Shown: one piece after another, positions 16,763-24,630 of the stretch
Layout of the letters: each line of letters begins with the position of its first letter
Position numbering within the stretch: position 1 is the first letter of the stretch
Assembly (NCBI GenBank): GCA_947490845.1
Contig: CANLHI010000007.1
Location: 1-39,212, forward strand
Origin: Actinomycetota bacterium
Lineage (GTDB): Bacteria; Actinomycetota; Actinomycetes; Nanopelagicales; Nanopelagicaceae
Direction of reading: 5' to 3'
Length of the DNA: 39,212 nt
Program-made: the position numbers and the translations under genes
Notes under the pieces: model-generated
Told to the model about the DNA's origin: nothing
Databases searched by the model: none
Seen by the model: the letters and a program-made list of their open reading frames with translations, nothing else

Positions 16763-17994
16763 TGAAGAATTGGTCGGGCACCGTAACTTTTGCAGATTCA
16801 CAAACATTTGCTCCAGCTACGACTGCAGAACTAGCGGAAATTGTTGCTGCTAACCCAAAGGTGCGCGCGAGAGGCAGCGCCCATAGCTTTAATGCAATTG
16901 CAGATACTGATGCAATTTCGGTTGCCTTCGAAAATTTACCGAATGACCTGGTAATCAATAAGGAAAAACAGATAGTTACCGTCTCCGCAGGAATCAAATA
17001 TGGTGAACTTGCTGTGGCACTTGAAGAACGAGGCTGGGCACTTCATAACATGGCATCACTGCCACATATTTCTGTGTCCGGTGCGATCGCAACAGCAACT
17101 CATGGATCTGGTGTTGGAAACGGAAATCTAGCTACGGCAGTACGCGGACTAGAAATAATTCTGCCCGATGGAAGTATCAAGAAAATAACTCCGGAGAACC
17201 CTGAGTTTGCTGGATATGTTGTCGGACTAGGTCTAGTTGGAATAGTTACAAAGGTAGATTTGGCGATCGAGCCAACTTTTAATATTGAACAAAGCGTTTA
17301 TCGTGGAATGTCACGCGAGACATATGCTGCAAACCTTGATGAAATCATGTCACTTGCATACAGCGTAAGTTATTTCACAACTTGGGCTGCAGCCGGCGGG
17401 GGAGAAGTTTGGGCGAAGTTTCGCAGCGGTTCTGCCGCACCCGATGGTTTGTTCGAGGCGTATCCAGCAACTTCTAATCGACATCCTTTACCAGGTTTGG
17501 ATCCAGAGCCTTGCACAGAGCAGATGGCAGTTAGCGGTCCATGGCACTTGCGATTGCCGCATTTTAAAATGGAGTTCACACCAAGTGCCGGCGATGAAAT
17601 TCAGAGCGAGTTCTTTGTTGATCGTAAAGATGCACCAGCAGCTATTGCGGCACTTGAAAAGATTGCACCTCAAATTAATGAGATCTTGTGGGTAACGGAA
17701 ATACGTGCAATCGCAGCTGATGGGTTATGGATGAGCCCGCATTTTCAGCGTGATTCAATTGGTATTCACTTCACTTGGAAGAAAGTCGATGCCGTCTATG
17801 AGTTTGTAAAGGTTGTGGAAGCAGTACTAGCGCCCTTTAAATATCGCCCGCACCTAGGAAAAGTTTATTCAGCATCTCCTGAATACATTCGGGCTGTTAT
17901 GCCAAAGATGGATGAATTCGTGCGGTTGGTAAAGGAAATCGATCCACTGAATAAGTTCGGCAATACGATGACTGACAAAATGTTAGGTCGTTAA
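16762..17994 (+). CDS. aldO: Alditol oxidase (AldO / xylitol oxidase type)
   Basis: This is a 410-residue flavoprotein of the vanillyl-alcohol-oxidase/L-gulonolactone-oxidase fold, very similar in layout to Streptomyces coelicolor AldO, which oxidises xylitol, sorbitol and other polyols at C1 to the aldose with release of H2O2. The covalent flavin His is His41 in RGSAHSFN. Other matching landmarks are NMASLPHISVSGAIATATHGSG, GLVGIVTKVDLAIEP, CTEQMAVSGPWHLRLPHFK, WVTEIRAIAADGLWMSP, and the C-terminal PHLGKVYS. No signal peptide is present, so it is cytoplasmic. It starts inside the last base of the uppP stop codon, and its own stop overlaps the convergent regX3 stop. A gulono- or arabinonolactone oxidase activity is less likely given the AldO-specific segments. 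Confidence 0.85.
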   Translation: MKNWSGTVTFADSQTFAPATTAELAEIVAANPKVRARGSAHSFNAIADTDAISVAFENLPNDLVINKEKQIVTVSAGIKYGELAVALEERGWALHNMASLPHISVSGAIATATHGSGVGNGNLATAVRGLEIILPDGSIKKITPENPEFAGYVVGLGLVGIVTKVDLAIEPTFNIEQSVYRGMSRETYAANLDEIMSLAYSVSYFTTWAAAGGGEVWAKFRSGSAAPDGLFEAYPATSNRHPLPGLDPEPCTEQMAVSGPWHLRLPHFKMEFTPSAGDEIQSEFFVDRKDAPAAIAALEKIAPQINEILWVTEIRAIAADGLWMSPHFQRDSIGIHFTWKKVDAVYEFVKVVEAVLAPFKYRPHLGKVYSASPEYIRAVMPKMDEFVRLVKEIDPLNKFGNTMTDKMLGR

Positions 17995-18677
17995 ATCTCT
18001 AACTTATAGCCAAGTCCACGAATAGTGTGGATGATTGTTGGGTTTGCTGGATCTGCTTCAACTTTTGCACGAAGGCGCTTGATGTGAACATCGAGAGTCT
18101 TGGTATCACCGAAGTAATCATTTCCCCAAACGCGGTCAATTAATTGGGTGCGAGTTAACACACGCCCGCTATTGCGCATTAGGTATTCCAATAGTTCAAA
18201 TTCTTTCAGAGGGAAAGTAACGGCAATTGAATTGACGGTTACATGGTGCTTATCTAAATCCATGCGGATTGGCCCGGCAGTTAACTCTTGATTCTCATCG
18301 TAATTAGATTGATCACCTGAATTGCGACGCATCACAGCCTTAATACGCGCCAGCAGCTCACGGGATGAATAAGGCTTGGTTACATAATCATCGGCGCCAA
18401 GTTCGAGTCCGACCACCTTGTCGATCTCAGAATCTTTAGCGGTCAACATAATTATTGGAACTTGAGAGGTGCTGCGAATAACGCGACAAACTTCGGTACC
18501 TGAAACTTCAGGAATCATTAAATCTAAAAGGATTAAATCCGGTGAGAACGAATTGAAGGATTCGATGGCTTCTTTTCCATTGACTGCTACTTGAACGTCA
18601 TAGCTCTCTTTCTTAAGCAGATAAGCCAGTGCATCGGAGAAAGAGATTTCATCTTCGACGATTAGTACTTTAGTCAT
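17991..18677 (-). CDS. regX3: Phosphate response regulator RegX3-like (OmpR family)
   Basis: This 228-residue OmpR/PhoB-type response regulator has a receiver domain (residues 1-115) with acidic pair Glu8/Asp9 in IVEDE, phospho-acceptor Asp52 in LILLDLMIP, the Thr in IIMLTAKD and the Lys in VTKPYSSREL. A winged-helix DNA-binding domain follows (about 130-228) with VTFPLKEFELLEYLMRN and the recognition-helix region TKTLDVHIKRLRAK. It is transcribed with the kinase gene upstream, whose stop overlaps its start by 4 nt. The divergent neighbours are phoU and pst, so this is the RegX3/PhoP-type phosphate regulator, expected to bind the GTTCACC repeats at 19764-19785. Confidence 0.92.
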   Translation of the reverse strand: MTKVLIVEDEISFSDALAYLLKKESYDVQVAVNGKEAIESFNSFSPDLILLDLMIPEVSGTEVCRVIRSTSQVPIIMLTAKDSEIDKVVGLELGADDYVTKPYSSRELLARIKAVMRRNSGDQSNYDENQELTAGPIRMDLDKHHVTVNSIAVTFPLKEFELLEYLMRNSGRVLTRTQLIDRVWGNDYFGDTKTLDVHIKRLRAKVEADPANPTIIHTIRGLGYKLEI

Positions 18678-19735: not shown

Positions 19736-19741
19736 GTGGAA

Positions 19742-19747
19742 AGCCTA
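19742..19747 (-). promoter_or_regulatory. -10 box of the leaderless senX3-regX3 promoter
   Basis: TAGGCT on the minus strand ends 6 nt before ATG 19735, so transcription would start at the start codon. The PHO box lies where the -35 element should be, which is the arrangement expected for activation by RegX3/PhoP-type regulators. Confidence 0.55.
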
Positions 19748-19763
19748 GCCCCATGTCGCACCA

Positions 19764-19785
19764 GTTCACCGTCCGTTCACCCAAT
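19764..19785. promoter_or_regulatory. PHO box: two 11-nt direct repeat units
   Basis: GTTCACC occurs at 19764-19770 and again at 19775-19781, exactly 11 nt apart, which is the core direct-repeat unit known from the Streptomyces PhoP and mycobacterial RegX3 regulons. It lies between divergent senX3 and phoU and could serve both promoters. Confidence 0.8.
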
Positions 19786-19788
19786 GGA

Positions 19789-19818
19789 TTGACTCCATTC
19801 AGCCGGTGCGCCTAGCGT
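19789..19818 (+). promoter_or_regulatory. Leaderless promoter of phoU-pst
   Basis: TTGACT (19789-19794) and TAGCGT (19813-19818) are 18 bp apart. The -10 ends 6 nt before ATG 19825, so the predicted transcript begins at the start codon. The PHO box ends 4 nt upstream of the -35. Confidence 0.6.
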
Positions 19819-19824
19819 GCGGTC

Positions 19825-20475
19825 ATGCCTCTAATCAGATCCGTATTCCAAGATGAACTAGATAGAGTCTCACAAACCCTCTTTGATTTAAGTGTGATGG
19901 TTTCGGACTCGATGGCTCGAGCGACTAAATCTGTAATGACAAAAGATTTAAAGTTAGCCGAAGAAGTAATTACTTCTGATGAAAAAATTGATACCGTCCA
20001 ACACGATTTAGATGCGCGAATCATCGACATTATTGCGCGCCAACAACCGGTTGCTTCAGATCTTCGCGCGCTCGTCACCGCACTTCGTATGTCAGCTGAC
20101 CTTGAACGTATGGGCGATCTGGCACACCACGTTGCCAAGCTGGTCCGTCTTCGTCATCCCGAAAGTGCTGTACCAGCAGAACTTCTTGCCCTGGTTGAAG
20201 CAATCGGTGAAACAGCAGAGAAGATTGCCACCAAGACAGGTGTAGTCATTTCAACTCGTGACGTTGCACTTGCCGTACAAGTTGAAAAAGATGATGATGA
20301 AATGGACAATCTGCATCGCAAGTTAATCTCAACTTTAGTTGAGCCTTCTTGGCCTCACGGTGTTGAAACAGCGATTGACTTAACTTTGCTTGGCCGTTAT
20401 TACGAGCGCTATGCCGATCATGCAGTTTCTGTTGCACGCCGCGTTATTTTCTTAGTGACAGGAAAGTTTGCTTAA
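19825..20475 (+). CDS. phoU: Phosphate signalling protein PhoU
   Basis: This 216-residue PhoU is the all-helical regulator that links the Pst transporter to the phosphate two-component system and dampens the response when phosphate is plentiful. Two PhoU repeats can be seen: residues about 15-105, with SDEKIDTVQHDLDARIIDIIARQQPVASDLR and LRMSADLERMGDLAHH, and residues about 115-205, with EKDDDEMDNLHRKLIS and LLGRYYERYADHAVSVARRV. The ExxxD metal-binding pattern typical of PhoU is present in both copies. No Shine-Dalgarno sequence is present; the -10 box 6 nt upstream implies a leaderless mRNA. It is the first gene of phoU-pstC-pstA-pstB, with pstC starting 1 nt after its stop. Confidence 0.95.
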   Translation: MPLIRSVFQDELDRVSQTLFDLSVMVSDSMARATKSVMTKDLKLAEEVITSDEKIDTVQHDLDARIIDIIARQQPVASDLRALVTALRMSADLERMGDLAHHVAKLVRLRHPESAVPAELLALVEAIGETAEKIATKTGVVISTRDVALAVQVEKDDDEMDNLHRKLISTLVEPSWPHGVETAIDLTLLGRYYERYADHAVSVARRVIFLVTGKFA

Positions 20476-20476
20476 T

Positions 20477-21457
20477 ATGTCAACTTCGACCGTCATCCCC
20501 AGCCCTCGCGAAATATCAACTGAACCCCGTCGTTCAGATAAAGTTTTTCGTGGCGTTGTTTCAGCCGGAGGATTTTCTTCTCTAGCGATTCTTGGGCTCA
20601 TTGCGATCTTCTTGGCATATCGTGGTTTCGAAGTTTTGAAAGAAGAAGGCTTAGGTTTCATTATCAATGCCGAATGGACAATTACGCAGGATGAATCCGC
20701 AAACGTAGTCGAAAGCGATTTTGGTTTAGCAGCCATGTTGGTTGGAACTATCCTTTGCGCGCTTGTCGCAGTCGTAATTGCTGTGCCAATCTCTGTTTTT
20801 TCTGCTCTTTATCTCAACTTCTATGCCCCGAACTGGCTAAAGAAAATACTTGTTGCAGTTATCGACATGATGGCCGCTTTCCCATCGATTCTTTTCGGAA
20901 TCTGGGGTTTCTTGGTACTTATGCCAAGTGTTGAATACTGGGGAAAGTTGATAAATAAGTGGCTTGGCTGGATCCCACTATTTGAAGTTAAGCCATATTT
21001 TCTATCACGTTCGCCATTTGTGGCCGGCGTTGTTCTTGCAATCATGATTATTCCGATCGTTACTTCGATTGCGCGAGAAATCTTTGCGCAGGCGCCACTT
21101 GATCGCATTCAAGCTGCATTCGCACTTGGTGCAACCCGTTGGGCAATGATCAAAGCAGTAGTAATTCCACATGGTCGCAGCGGAGTTGTTGGTGGCGCAA
21201 TGCTGGGACTTGGACGAGCGATGGGTGAAACCGTAGCCGTTTACACAGTGCTGAATATCGTTTTCCAAATTAATTGGCATGTTCTACTTGGCGCAGGTGG
21301 CAACGTAGCGTCGTTAATTATTTTAAAGTTTGGTGAAGCGAACCTGTATGAAATCAAGGGGTTAATGGCCGCTGGTTTGGTTCTTTTCCTTCTGACTCTG
21401 GCTGTAAATTTTCTTGCAGACTTTATTGTTAAGAGAACAGGAAAGTCGGGACGATGA
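20477..21457 (+). CDS. pstC: Phosphate ABC transporter permease PstC
   Basis: PstC is one of the two membrane subunits of the high-affinity phosphate importer. The protein is about 326 residues, counting from ATG 20477, which begins MSTSTVIPS; an in-frame TTG 9 nt upstream is less likely. About six hydrophobic segments are visible. Landmarks are ALYLNFYAPNWLKKILVAVIDMMAAFPSILFGIWGF, SIAREIFAQAPLDRIQAAFALGATRW with its EAA-type loop contacting PstB, and GLGRAMGETVAVYTVLN. The gene is preceded by AGGAAAG inside the end of phoU and overlaps pstA by 4 nt. Confidence 0.95.
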   Translation: MSTSTVIPSPREISTEPRRSDKVFRGVVSAGGFSSLAILGLIAIFLAYRGFEVLKEEGLGFIINAEWTITQDESANVVESDFGLAAMLVGTILCALVAVVIAVPISVFSALYLNFYAPNWLKKILVAVIDMMAAFPSILFGIWGFLVLMPSVEYWGKLINKWLGWIPLFEVKPYFLSRSPFVAGVVLAIMIIPIVTSIAREIFAQAPLDRIQAAFALGATRWAMIKAVVIPHGRSGVVGGAMLGLGRAMGETVAVYTVLNIVFQINWHVLLGAGGNVASLIILKFGEANLYEIKGLMAAGLVLFLLTLAVNFLADFIVKRTGKSGR

Positions 21458-22497
21458 CCGCCGTAGCAACACCACAAAAACCTTGGGCAAAACGCCCAAG
21501 TGATCGTCTCCGTGAAATTGCACTTTTATTAGGAGCAATTATTTTCTCTTTCGTATTTGTTGGCGCAACTGAAATGAAAGGTAAATTGGCTTACGCATTT
21601 GTCTTCTTCGCAGCTTATGGCGTCTTGACTTCAACATATGCCTTCATTAGTCGCGGAGCTCCTGCTGCAAAAGATGCCTTTGTAAGCACCTTGGTATCCC
21701 TCGGTGCGGTACTAACTGTGGTTCCAATGGCGAGCATTCTCATCACCGTCATTCAAAAAGGTGTGCCCGGCCTGCATCTTGGTCTTTTCACTAACGATAT
21801 GTCGATGGCAACCTCAACTGATCCAATTGCTACTGGTGGAATCTTGCATGCAATCACAGGAACCCTCACTCTTGTCACTTTGGCATTAGTTATGAGTATC
21901 CCGCTTGGTATTTTGACGGCTCTATACCTAACTGAAATTAAAGGCAGATTTGCCGGCCCTATTCGCTTCTTAGTTCAGGCGATGTCCGGCGTTCCATCAA
22001 TCGTCGCTGGCCTATTTATTCTCTCGGCTGTTTTATACACGATTACAAAAGAGTACTCGGCGCTTATGGGATCTCTTGCGCTTACAATTTTGATGATCCC
22101 AACAATTGCACGAACTTCTGAAGAAGTCTTACTACTTATCCCAAATGATTTGCGTGAAGCCGGTACCGCACTTGGCGGAACTCAGTGGCGCACAGTTGCC
22201 ATGATTGTTGTGCCAGCTGCGCGCAGCGGTTTGATGACTGCAATTATTTTGGGAATCGCTCGTATTGCTGGCGAGACTGCACCCCTTGTTTTACTTACCG
22301 GTGGCGGGGATAAGGTAAATCCAAATCCTTTCAGCGGTGCTGTTGGCTCATTGCCTTATTACATCTGGCGTTCATTTAACGCTGGCTCTCCGGAAGCGAT
22401 GACTCGAGCTTGGGCAGGCTTACTAGTTCTAATGGTTGTTGTTTTTATTCTTTTCATCGCAGCGCGCTCCTTATCTAACCGAAAGATCTCCAAATGA
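21454..22497 (+). CDS. pstA: Phosphate ABC transporter permease PstA
   Basis: This is the second membrane subunit of the Pst phosphate importer, 347 residues, longer at the N-terminus than many PstA proteins because of extra hydrophobic segments in residues 20-85. Family landmarks are [52 protein letters not shown], the EAA-type loop [23 protein letters not shown], and [18 protein letters not shown]. It is coupled by ATGA overlaps both to pstC upstream and to pstB downstream, so the three subunits are made together. Confidence 0.95.
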
Positions 22498-23366
22498 TTC
22501 AGACTCCTGAAAGCGAGAAAACCATGTCATCAACCACTCCAAGCTCTTTGGCCAGCGTTGCTAGCGCCAAGGCAGAACGAAGTGCGCCAACGTCAGCGCA
22601 AGGCACCGGTCTGGAAGCACGTGGAATCCATGCCTGGTTCGGTAAGAATCACGTTCTCTCAAACATTAATTTGGATTTTGCCGCAGGGTCTGTGACTGCG
22701 CTAATCGGTCCTTCTGGCTGCGGTAAGTCAACATTTATTCGTACCTTAAATCGTATGCACGAATTTATTCCAGGTGCTGCAATGGCCGGTGAGGTACTGC
22801 TTGACGGTAAAGATGTATATGCACCAGGTGTTGATGTAACTAAGATTCGCCTACAAGTGGGAATGGTTTTTCAAAAGCCAAACCCTTTCCCATCCATGAC
22901 TATTGGTGAGAATGTTCTTTCTGGCCTTAAATTAGCTCAACTCAAAGTTCACAATAAGGACGAGCTTCTTGAATCATGCTTGGTTCGTGCTGGTCTATGG
23001 AATGAAGTAAAAGATCGCCTTGATGCACACGGTGGCTCACTCTCCGGCGGGCAGCAGCAACGTCTCTGTATCGCACGCGCATTGGCTGTAAGCCCAGAAG
23101 TCCTTTTGATGGATGAACCATGTTCGGCCCTTGATCCAGGATCAACTCTGCGCATTGAAGAGACTATTCGCGAGTTATCTGATTCGATGACCATCATCAT
23201 TGTTACGCACAATATGCAGCAGGCTGCTCGAGTATCGGATTACACAGCATTCTTTTTATCTGATGGCGGCCCAGGCGAAATGATTGAAGTCGCAACCACC
23301 AGTGAGATTTTCTCTAAGCCAAAAGACCAGCGAACAGAAAATTACGTCACCGGCCGTTTCGGGTAG
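22494..23366 (+). CDS. pstB: Phosphate ABC transporter ATPase PstB
   Basis: This is the ATPase of the Pst importer, 290 residues. It has Walker [11 protein letters not shown]-loop [12 protein letters not shown], signature [16 protein letters not shown], Walker [14 protein letters not shown] and the switch His in [17 protein letters not shown]. The C-terminal [21 protein letters not shown] is the PstB hallmark. Compared with the usual 250-260 residues there is a Ser/Thr/Ala-rich N-terminal tail of about 40 residues before [15 protein letters not shown]. Starting at ATG 22524 would shorten it by ten residues, but ATG 22494 overlaps the pstA stop in the same way as the other pst genes. Confidence 0.95.
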
Positions 23367-23378
23367 CCGTAACCTGCT

Positions 23379-23438
23379 GTTCATCTAAGTGTTAACAAAC
23401 GTTTGCCACTTCGGCGCATTTAGTTAACCGCAGTTGCC
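23379..23438 (+). promoter_or_regulatory. Degenerate PHO-box-like array upstream of pstS
   Basis: GTTCATC (23379), GTTAACA (23391), GTTTGCC (23401), GTTAACC (23423) and GTTGCC (23433) resemble the GTTCACC unit and begin 12, 10, 22 and 10 nt apart, close to an 11-nt phase. This suggests pstS has its own RegX3-responsive promoter. The individual units are weak matches. Confidence 0.5.
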
Positions 23439-23484
23439 TAGTTTTCTCCTAGCACGTCACCTATATCTAATAAGGGGAAAATTA

Positions 23485-24630
23485 ATGAAAGTTTCAATGC
23501 TCGCAAAATCTGCAGCAGTTGCACTCGTTTTTGGGCTCGTCGCATCGACACCAGCTCACGCAGTAGATCTAACTGGTTCTGGCGCATCATTCCCAGCACT
23601 ACTTATCGAAGCTTGCAAGGCTCCATTCGCCACAGCTTCAGGACATTCATTTACTTACGCATCTCTTGGTTCAGGTACCGGCCGTTCAAACTCTGACAAG
23701 TCAATTGGAGATTTCTGGTTCTCAGATGCAGCTCACACAGCAACATCAAAGCGTTCAACGATTATTCACACACCAGTTGTAGCAGCACCAATCGGAATCT
23801 TGCACAACTTGCCTTCACGTAACACTCTTTCACTTTCAGCAACAACAATTGCTGGCATCTTCGCCGGAACAATCACACGTTGGAACGATCCAGCAATTGT
23901 CAAGGATAACAACCGCGCATACGAAAAGATTGTTTACAAGACAAAGGATGGTCAACTTGTTAAGGATTCAAGTGGTCAGCCAGTCGTTGCTAAGAAAATC
24001 GCAACAACAACTCGTTACACGCTTCCAGATAAGCCAATCAAGGTTGTGTATCGTCTAGATTCTTCAGGTACAACTGAAAACTTCACAAACTACCTAAATA
24101 AGTCTGCCCCATCAGTCTGGACAAAAGCGAAGTCTTCAGTTTTCACAACTTCATTCCCAGGCAACATCAACTCACCTGAAAACTTGGGTCGTGTTGTAGG
24201 CGCTAACTATTCCCAAGGTGTTGCCCAGCAAGCTGGAAAAACTCCTTACTCAATCACTTTCGCTGAAGTTAACTATGCAGTCGGAAACAAGCTAAAGGTC
24301 GCACACGTAATCAACCCATCTGGAAATGCGGTTGAACCTACTTCTGTAACTACTTCAGCTTTCCTTGCACAAGGATCAATGGATGCAAACGGAATTGTTT
24401 CATTCGACTATGCAACTAAGGAAGCTGGCGCATACACACTAGGTATCGTCTCTTACATGTTAGTTGACACAGCATATGCAGATAAGACACGTGCAGCAGC
24501 TGTAAAGGCTCTTGCTAACTTCATTCTCTCACCAGCATGTGCGAAGGATAAAGGCGAGGCACTCGGTTTCGCAGTCCTTGATGGTAACTTCAAAAAGAAA
24601 GCCGACGAGCAGAACGCAAAAATCGGTTAA
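23485..24630 (+). CDS. pstS: Phosphate ABC transporter substrate-binding protein PstS
   Basis: This is the extracellular phosphate-binding protein, about 381 residues from ATG 23485, which has AAGGGG 7 nt upstream; an earlier in-frame ATG at 23434 would add an unlikely hydrophilic extension. Residues 1-26 form a signal peptide ending in AHA, with no lipobox Cys. The phosphate-site motifs are present: DLTGSGASFPALLIEAC at the mature N-terminus, SLGSGTGRSN, TRWNDPAIV, and YRLDSSGTTENFTNYL. The C-terminus contains a single Cys (SPACAKDKGEALGF). It is separated from pstB by 118 bp holding PHO-box-like sites, and is followed by a strong intrinsic terminator, so it can be made in excess over the membrane subunits. 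Confidence 0.94.
   Translation: MKVSMLAKSAAVALVFGLVASTPAHAVDLTGSGASFPALLIEACKAPFATASGHSFTYASLGSGTGRSNSDKSIGDFWFSDAAHTATSKRSTIIHTPVVAAPIGILHNLPSRNTLSLSATTIAGIFAGTITRWNDPAIVKDNNRAYEKIVYKTKDGQLVKDSSGQPVVAKKIATTTRYTLPDKPIKVVYRLDSSGTTENFTNYLNKSAPSVWTKAKSSVFTTSFPGNINSPENLGRVVGANYSQGVAQQAGKTPYSITFAEVNYAVGNKLKVAHVINPSGNAVEPTSVTTSAFLAQGSMDANGIVSFDYATKEAGAYTLGIVSYMLVDTAYADKTRAAAVKALANFILSPACAKDKGEALGFAVLDGNFKKKADEQNAKIG

Follow-up and report, generated by a model that had tools for sequence, protein, structure and literature searches.

In Streptomyces, binding of the response regulator PhoP to the phoU-phoRP region was observed by EMSA in S. filipinensis (PMC6283541), and by both EMSA and footprinting in S. 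hygroscopicus (PMC6784220). From this region, PhoP directly controls phoRP (PMC6283541). A weak autoregulation by RegX3 has been reported for mycobacteria (PMC3116866). These papers, and those named below, are cited from excerpts; our definition of the units of an actinobacterial PHO operator was likewise taken from excerpts of PMC6283541 and PMC4415409. A partial-term search of the open-licence PMC literature gave, among the matches listed, no account of Pho control in Planktophila or Nanopelagicales.

Here, we describe a candidate PHO operator in a stretch of 39 212 nt, referred to in full as the window, that carries genes for seven Pho components (Table 1). The products PhoU, PstC, PstA and PstB passed their NCBIfam cut-offs; PstS, the kinase and the regulator scored below theirs, yet contained fitting Pfam domains. 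Compared with solved protein chains, the regulator was closest to RegX3 of Mycobacterium tuberculosis, which it resembles over its whole length, and the next best match was MtrA, at 202 bits. The gene names given in an earlier note on this DNA are sound. The start codon of pstS was picked by eye, as the listed ORF opens at 23434. Named PhoU relatives came from Candidatus Planktophila, other Nanopelagicaceae and unnamed actinobacterial records, with 96% to Ca. Planktophila sp. Baikal-deep-G29, and the source organism is a relative of Ca. Planktophila. Several metagenome bins with near PhoU relatives (L218, L222, L223, L247, L251, L254, L276, L288 and L290) are titled Bifidobacterium breve, Streptomyces griseus or Streptomycetaceae, and look like misnamed freshwater actinobacteria.

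Table 1. Features of the Pho locus, with positions in the window
Feature	Position	Strand	Basis or remark
regX3, response regulator	17991..18677	-	2oqr, 321 bits; Pfam Response_reg and Trans_reg_C
senX3, histidine kinase, apparently lacking a membrane helix	18674..19735	-	PnpS/PhoR-type best models, below cut-off; HisKA and HATPase_c; hydropathy
Putative senX3 -10, TAGGCT	19742..19747	-	6 nt before ATG; TAnnnT 6-7 nt from start in 88/90 distinct relatives
PHO unit 1, GTTCACC	19764..19770	+	Read directly and in relatives; overlaps senX3 -35 position
PHO unit 2, GTTCACC	19775..19781	+	Read directly and in relatives
PHO unit 3 position, degenerate GGATTGA	19786..19792	+	nTTnAnn in 1/90
PHO unit 4, ATTCAGC	19797..19803	+	9 nt before phoU -10; nTTnAnn in 89/90
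Putative phoU -10, TAGCGT	19813..19818	+	6 nt before ATG; TAnnnT 6-7 nt from start in 90/90
phoU	19825..20475	+	TIGR02135, above cut-off
pstC	20468..21457	+	TIGR02138, above cut-off
pstA	21454..22497	+	TIGR00974, above cut-off
pstB	22494..23366	+	TIGR00972, above cut-off
Second PHO array, 11 nt phase	23368..23429	+	Clear units GTTCATC, GTTTGCC and GTTAACC; precedes pstS; weaker than the phoU array
Putative pstS -10, TAGTTT	23439..23444	+	9 nt after last unit
pstS, likely ATG at 23485	23485..24630	+	TIGR00975, below cut-off; PBP_like_2

Read directly from the sequence, the senX3 ATG (19735-19733, minus strand) and the phoU ATG (from 19825) leave 89 bp between them. As the earlier note had stated, two GTTCACC units with a period of exactly 11 lie in this interval (GTTCACC-N4-GTTCACC, 19764-19781), and the -10 boxes of both genes end 6 nt from their start codons. 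The complement of 19742-19747, TAGGCT, is separated from the first GTTCACC by 16 nt, close to the approximately 17 nt proposed, so that the box covers the -35 position of senX3. On the phoU side, TAGCGT does follow 18 nt past TTGACT (19789-19794); the distance from the box to TTGACT, given as 4 nt, is 7 nt when measured from the end of the second GTTCACC. Sequence comparison bore out the central proposal, one PHO box common to two divergent, leaderless-looking promoters, but the box of two units became a row of four 11 nt units, of which the third is degenerate. Unit 4 and a further array in front of pstS had escaped the note.

The row thus contains at least two direct 11 nt repeat units with a GTTCACC core, and a cognate regulator, regX3, is encoded in the window. 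PHO units at the promoters of Pho genes, retained in relatives, were found at phoU/senX3, at pstS and at pstC. Judged by its sequence, the row from 19764 to 19803 is a candidate operator that almost certainly belongs to RegX3, and the 89 bp very probably form a bidirectional PHO operator serving both the sensor genes and the uptake genes.

Conservation was followed in loci of the window's own type (type A), defined as those whose PhoU reaches 55% identity or more and whose aligned start position holds a start codon. The 93 type A loci, at least two of which (L070 and L151) are from other genera, comprise 90 distinct sequences, or 48 after removal of sequences at least 85% alike. In the genus set, 13 of 135 genomes had no PhoU match; matches in G047, G080, G021, G058 and G066, and second matches in G125 and G138, were left out of the genus loci, as was L085, which was too short. 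Twenty loci of other genera were added by hand choice beside those given by the family search. Units 1 and 2, whose columns are biased by having served as the anchor, read GTTnACC and mostly GTTCACC in type A; the anchoring made no use of unit 4, of either -10 box or of the spacing to the ATG. The start of unit 1 lies 61 nt (55 loci) or 62 nt (36 loci) upstream of the phoU start in 91 of the 93 loci, with two exceptions. Among the 90 distinct sequences, units 1, 2 and 4 are conserved and unit 3 is not: the pattern nTTnAnn occurs in a single sequence at the third period and in all but one at the fourth, whereas other offsets yield it in 68 of 7380 cases. Unit 4 is separated from the phoU -10 by 9 nt in 85 of the 90, the others having gaps of 8 nt (one), 10 nt (three) and 30 nt (one).

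The box is less uniform outside type A. With our box model, 33 of 50 loci, nearly all of other types and genera, scored below 8 bits (one of the 50, L070, belongs to type A), and the other 17 have a box scoring roughly 8 bits or higher. Fourteen of these 17 boxes stand 82-85 nt upstream of phoU, farther out by about two turns. The kinase gene is divergent from phoU in 140 of 142 loci and was not seen in the other two. Of 72 loci, among them 10 class relatives and three with fewer than 1000 downstream bases, 43 have pstC behind phoU in the same orientation.

The earlier note had assigned TTGACT as the -35 element of phoU. We rejected this assignment: TTGAC[AT] is kept in 3 of the 90 distinct relatives, and in 1 of the 48 dereplicated ones, and an in-phase PHO unit lies just downstream in 89 of the 90. 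At E. coli PhoB promoters, the repeats replace the -35 element a little upstream of the -10. The layout of unit 4 and the phoU -10 recurs at the second array of the window, in front of pstS. Of 30 distinct sequences past pstB, the window's included, 28 have the motif unit-N9-TAnnnT (two of the 30, L231 and L234, have no detected pstS), and among gaps of 5 to 15 at this position none other than 9 occurs more than once. The phoU and pstS promoters, which belong to one pathway, therefore have the same unit, direction and gap, and this argues that unit 4 does the work of a -35 element at phoU. The motif was found at none of eight pstC promoters with a box of their own. The existence of a conserved array at pstS, the last gene of the run, also led us to reject the notion that a single box governs all seven Pho components.

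Both genes flanking the operator have starts of leaderless type. In counts that preferred start codons preceded by TAnnnT, this box lies 6-7 nt upstream of the phoU start codon in 90 of 90 distinct sequences and of the senX3 start codon in 88 of 90, compared with 363 of 10 730 ATGs in these loci overall. At family level, where any start codon from -6 to +12 nt of the aligned start could score, phoU has a leaderless-type start in 132 of 132 loci (125 distinct 60 nt upstream sequences), versus 1 of 10 class relatives, for which loci came from 10 of 16 class genomes. It should be noted that this preference and this flexibility favoured the scoring of leaderless starts. Ten further family loci, in which PhoU was missed by the first query, also carry the leaderless-type signal when other queries are used. 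Eight of the 10 class relatives have a ribosome-site-like sequence before phoU and no TAnnnT box; such a string also occurs in 12 of the 132 family loci. The signal is not unique to senX3 and phoU, being present near the 5' end of 7 of the 37 long ORFs of the window. The transcripts of senX3 and phoU seem to begin exactly at their start codons. Given the counts for family and class relatives, and the leader that phoU possesses in S. filipinensis, the phoU leader seems to have been lost in the family.

SenX3 itself apparently has no membrane helix; the predicted protein begins at a PAS-like region, and an in-frame TAG lies 12 nt upstream of its ATG. In 127 family loci with a leaderless-type start, hydropathy over the first 60 residues (19-residue window) reached a maximum of 1.72, and two of them were at 1.6 or above. 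The kinases of class relatives, assessed over 100 residues rather than 60, reached 1.9-2.7 in 6 of 10. If SenX3 is indeed a soluble phosphate sensor kinase, it would depend on PhoU or another partner for contact with the transporter.

These features suggest the following mechanism. Under phosphate limitation, SenX3 would phosphorylate RegX3, and RegX3~P would occupy the core pair (units 1 and 2) head to tail, protein contacts extending the row across the weak unit 3 to unit 4. As phoU has no conserved -35 element, protein on unit 4, 9 nt upstream of the -10, would stand in for the -35 contact, as proposed for pstS. RegX3~P at unit 4 would contact RNA polymerase and switch on phoU together with the pst genes behind it, presumably as one transcript, and pstS would gain an additional rise from the array in front of it. 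At the opposite flank, unit 1, which lies over the senX3 -35 position or, in some relatives, a full helix turn more distant, would raise senX3-regX3 expression, amounting to autoregulation. Both transcripts would start at or beside the start codon. Activation of phoU by RegX3 is very likely, and we somewhat favour activation of senX3 over its repression. Taken as a whole, and resting as it does on sequence data, a bidirectional RegX3 operator that activates phoU-pst and senX3-regX3 from leaderless starts is a likely reading of the locus.

The distance between the box and the senX3 promoter is variable in a patterned way. Unit 1 is 16 nt from the senX3 -10 in 71 of the 90 distinct sequences and 26-28 nt away in 17, with no distance of 17-25 nt; two sequences had no -10 by our rule. 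A quick SenX3 tree with 87 rows requires at least six switches between the 16 nt and 26-28 nt classes, and branches with good support force three of them; some forks of this tree are weak, and in it two long branches meet (L070 with L111). Among the 17 boxed loci of the set of 50, the distance is 46-48 nt in eight, 35-36 nt in three, 32 nt in three and 16 nt in one, and was not found in two. The three loci at 32 nt (L074, L079 and L160), which are of other types, lie about 1.5 turns beyond 16 nt and break the whole-turn pattern. Most spacing steps are nevertheless near whole turns, which supports, without proving, a face-of-helix requirement. It is possible, and we put this forward tentatively, that a single directional row of RegX3 dimers drives two leaderless promoters, neither of which has a -35: in the forward direction through the unit nearest the promoter, 9 nt from the -10, and in the backward direction through the rear end of the row, at 16 nt or a turn further. 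The head-to-tail row would then be used from both ends, and the senX3 promoter, shifted mostly by whole helix turns, would amount to a natural phasing experiment across the genus.

The whole-turn jumps could instead reflect a mutational habit, the gain or loss of an 11 nt repeat unit, with no requirement for a helix face. The size of the jump equals the length of a unit, as such a habit predicts; the added stretch does not resemble one, as the position 11 nt before unit 1 has a mean of 1.3 matches out of 7 in the long class versus 1.8 in the short class. For the same reason, an extra PHO unit inside the longer spacers was rejected. We regard the mutational explanation as rather unlikely.

The sign of control at senX3 is a separate matter. 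The shared activation asserted in the earlier note can be proposed for senX3 and not read from the DNA: the repeats face phoU, and senX3 therefore reads the row in reverse. RegX3~P could activate phoU-pst while repressing senX3-regX3, from the reversed site over the senX3 -35 or once the row is filled, and so put a brake on the response. In line with this, 71 of the 90 sequences have unit 1 overlapping the -35 position of senX3, and an antisense PhoB site in the E. coli phoB promoter represses, giving negative feedback coupled to positive autoregulation (PMC6194859, in excerpt). A unit placed one turn further out, in a class of 17 sequences that recurs, would block less, and the excerpted precedents, PhoP control of phoRP in Streptomyces, which could be of either sign (PMC6283541), and weak autoregulation by RegX3 in mycobacteria (PMC3116866), lend the opposite-sign scheme little weight. 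We consider it unlikely, and keep to activation at both promoters.

Less probable still is that the box serves phoU alone, with senX3 transcribed from a constitutive leaderless promoter and the common region kept short by genome streamlining. The nearly fixed distance to the phoU -10, set beside a senX3 distance that ranges over 16 and 26-28 nt in type A and 32-48 nt in other types, fits this explanation. Among the 88 type A sequences with a senX3 -10, however, the distances bunch into two classes with nothing between them, and such bunching would be improbable without constraint.

Genome scans addressed how far the repeat exceeds chance. The exact GTTCACC pair at senX3/phoU is the only one in the organism's own genome (1.18 Mb, 79% complete); base composition predicts 0.0002 such pairs in the window and 0.007 in 1.18 Mb. 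In shuffles of the 89 bp, 80 of 20 000 contained any exact 7-mer repeated 11 nt apart. With up to three mismatches, the window gave six matches, compared with a shuffle mean of 1.96, and 2 of 100 shuffles attained six. A random origin of the repeat, without function, can be dismissed given the 0.007 pairs expected per genome and the conservation of the pair in the genus. Of these two arguments, conservation carries more weight.

The earlier note had suggested that a genome scan would list the regulon. Run on the organism's own genome, it lists nothing beyond the senX3/phoU pair: with up to two mismatches there were nine matches versus six for the reversed control pattern, so that weaker pairs are not enriched and are inseparable from noise. 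Nor were weaker pairs enriched in 13 chosen genus genomes at two mismatches (125 matches versus 140 for the control, both sums made by hand). Exact matches to GTTNACCNNNNGTTNACC (GTTNACC pairs) were more informative, numbering 105 in the 135 genus genomes versus 26 for the reversed control, with 67 at phoU and 38 elsewhere by hand count. We inspected 18 loci with matches away from phoU. At least nine of them lie just before pstC (L181, L182, L186, L187, L191, L192, L193, L196 and L208, of which L196 and L208 are overlapping matches to one site; the identity of pstC was confirmed for eight), at least one (L169) before pstS and at least one (L188) before a periplasmic-binding-protein gene, while at least seven adjoin no recognized Pho gene. 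The pair is therefore a frequent marker of Pho genes, and a pst operon away from phoU can have a box of its own.

Two further arrangements came to light in these loci. In one genus genome, an exact GTTCACC pair (L188, 1354-1371) precedes a Peripla_BP_6 gene, a possible Pho target outside phosphate uptake; similar pairs occur in some other genus genomes. In L196, the pst box is flanked by pstC on one side and a divergent RNase_T-type exonuclease gene on the other, with an inorganic pyrophosphatase adjoining, and the translations of L181, L186, L187 and L191 point to a similar placement of the box between pstC and a divergent exonuclease gene.

The freshwater lineage to which this locus belongs is abundant. 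The promoter grammar proposed here, unit-N9-TAnnnT without a -35 element, could help to find RegX3 targets in small genomes. The natural spacing variants make it testable whether a head-to-tail row of OmpR-family dimers can activate from both ends, and the apparent family-wide loss of the phoU leader is an addition to what has been described.

The locus can finally be placed beside the described systems. The mycobacterial SenX3-RegX3 pair has a closely related regulator and differs in its sensor, as SenX3 here shows no membrane helix. The E. coli Pho box shares the 11 nt direct repeats, with seven well conserved and four less conserved bases, and has a different core, CTGTCAT (excerpt of PMC4415409); in the window one row stands between two divergent, leaderless-looking promoters. 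The Streptomyces phoU-phoRP region is the nearest in form, with phoU divergent from phoR-phoP and 11 nt GTTCACC units directed toward phoU. In the S. filipinensis excerpt (PMC6283541), there are likewise four units with a poor third (3.3, 10.6, -2.8 and 6.3 bits), the last unit is close to the phoU promoter, there 4 nt from the phoU -35, and phoR is leaderless, a state that the sequence before senX3 would fit. The phoU gene of S. filipinensis, in contrast, has a 35 nt leader with a ribosome site, whereas the leaderless-type signal is found in all 132 family loci, which makes the arrangement in the window a variant and not a copy. In Streptomyces, moreover, phoU is unlinked to pstSCAB (PMC7866108, in excerpt); here the pst genes lie behind phoU. 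As the site was to be expected from Streptomyces, our finding mainly extends a known switch to a freshwater lineage. It is almost certainly an operator of the type described at Streptomyces phoU-phoRP, from which it departs in that both promoters are apparently leaderless, phoU appears to have no -35 element, the transporter genes follow phoU, and the two promoters share a common region of 89 bp.
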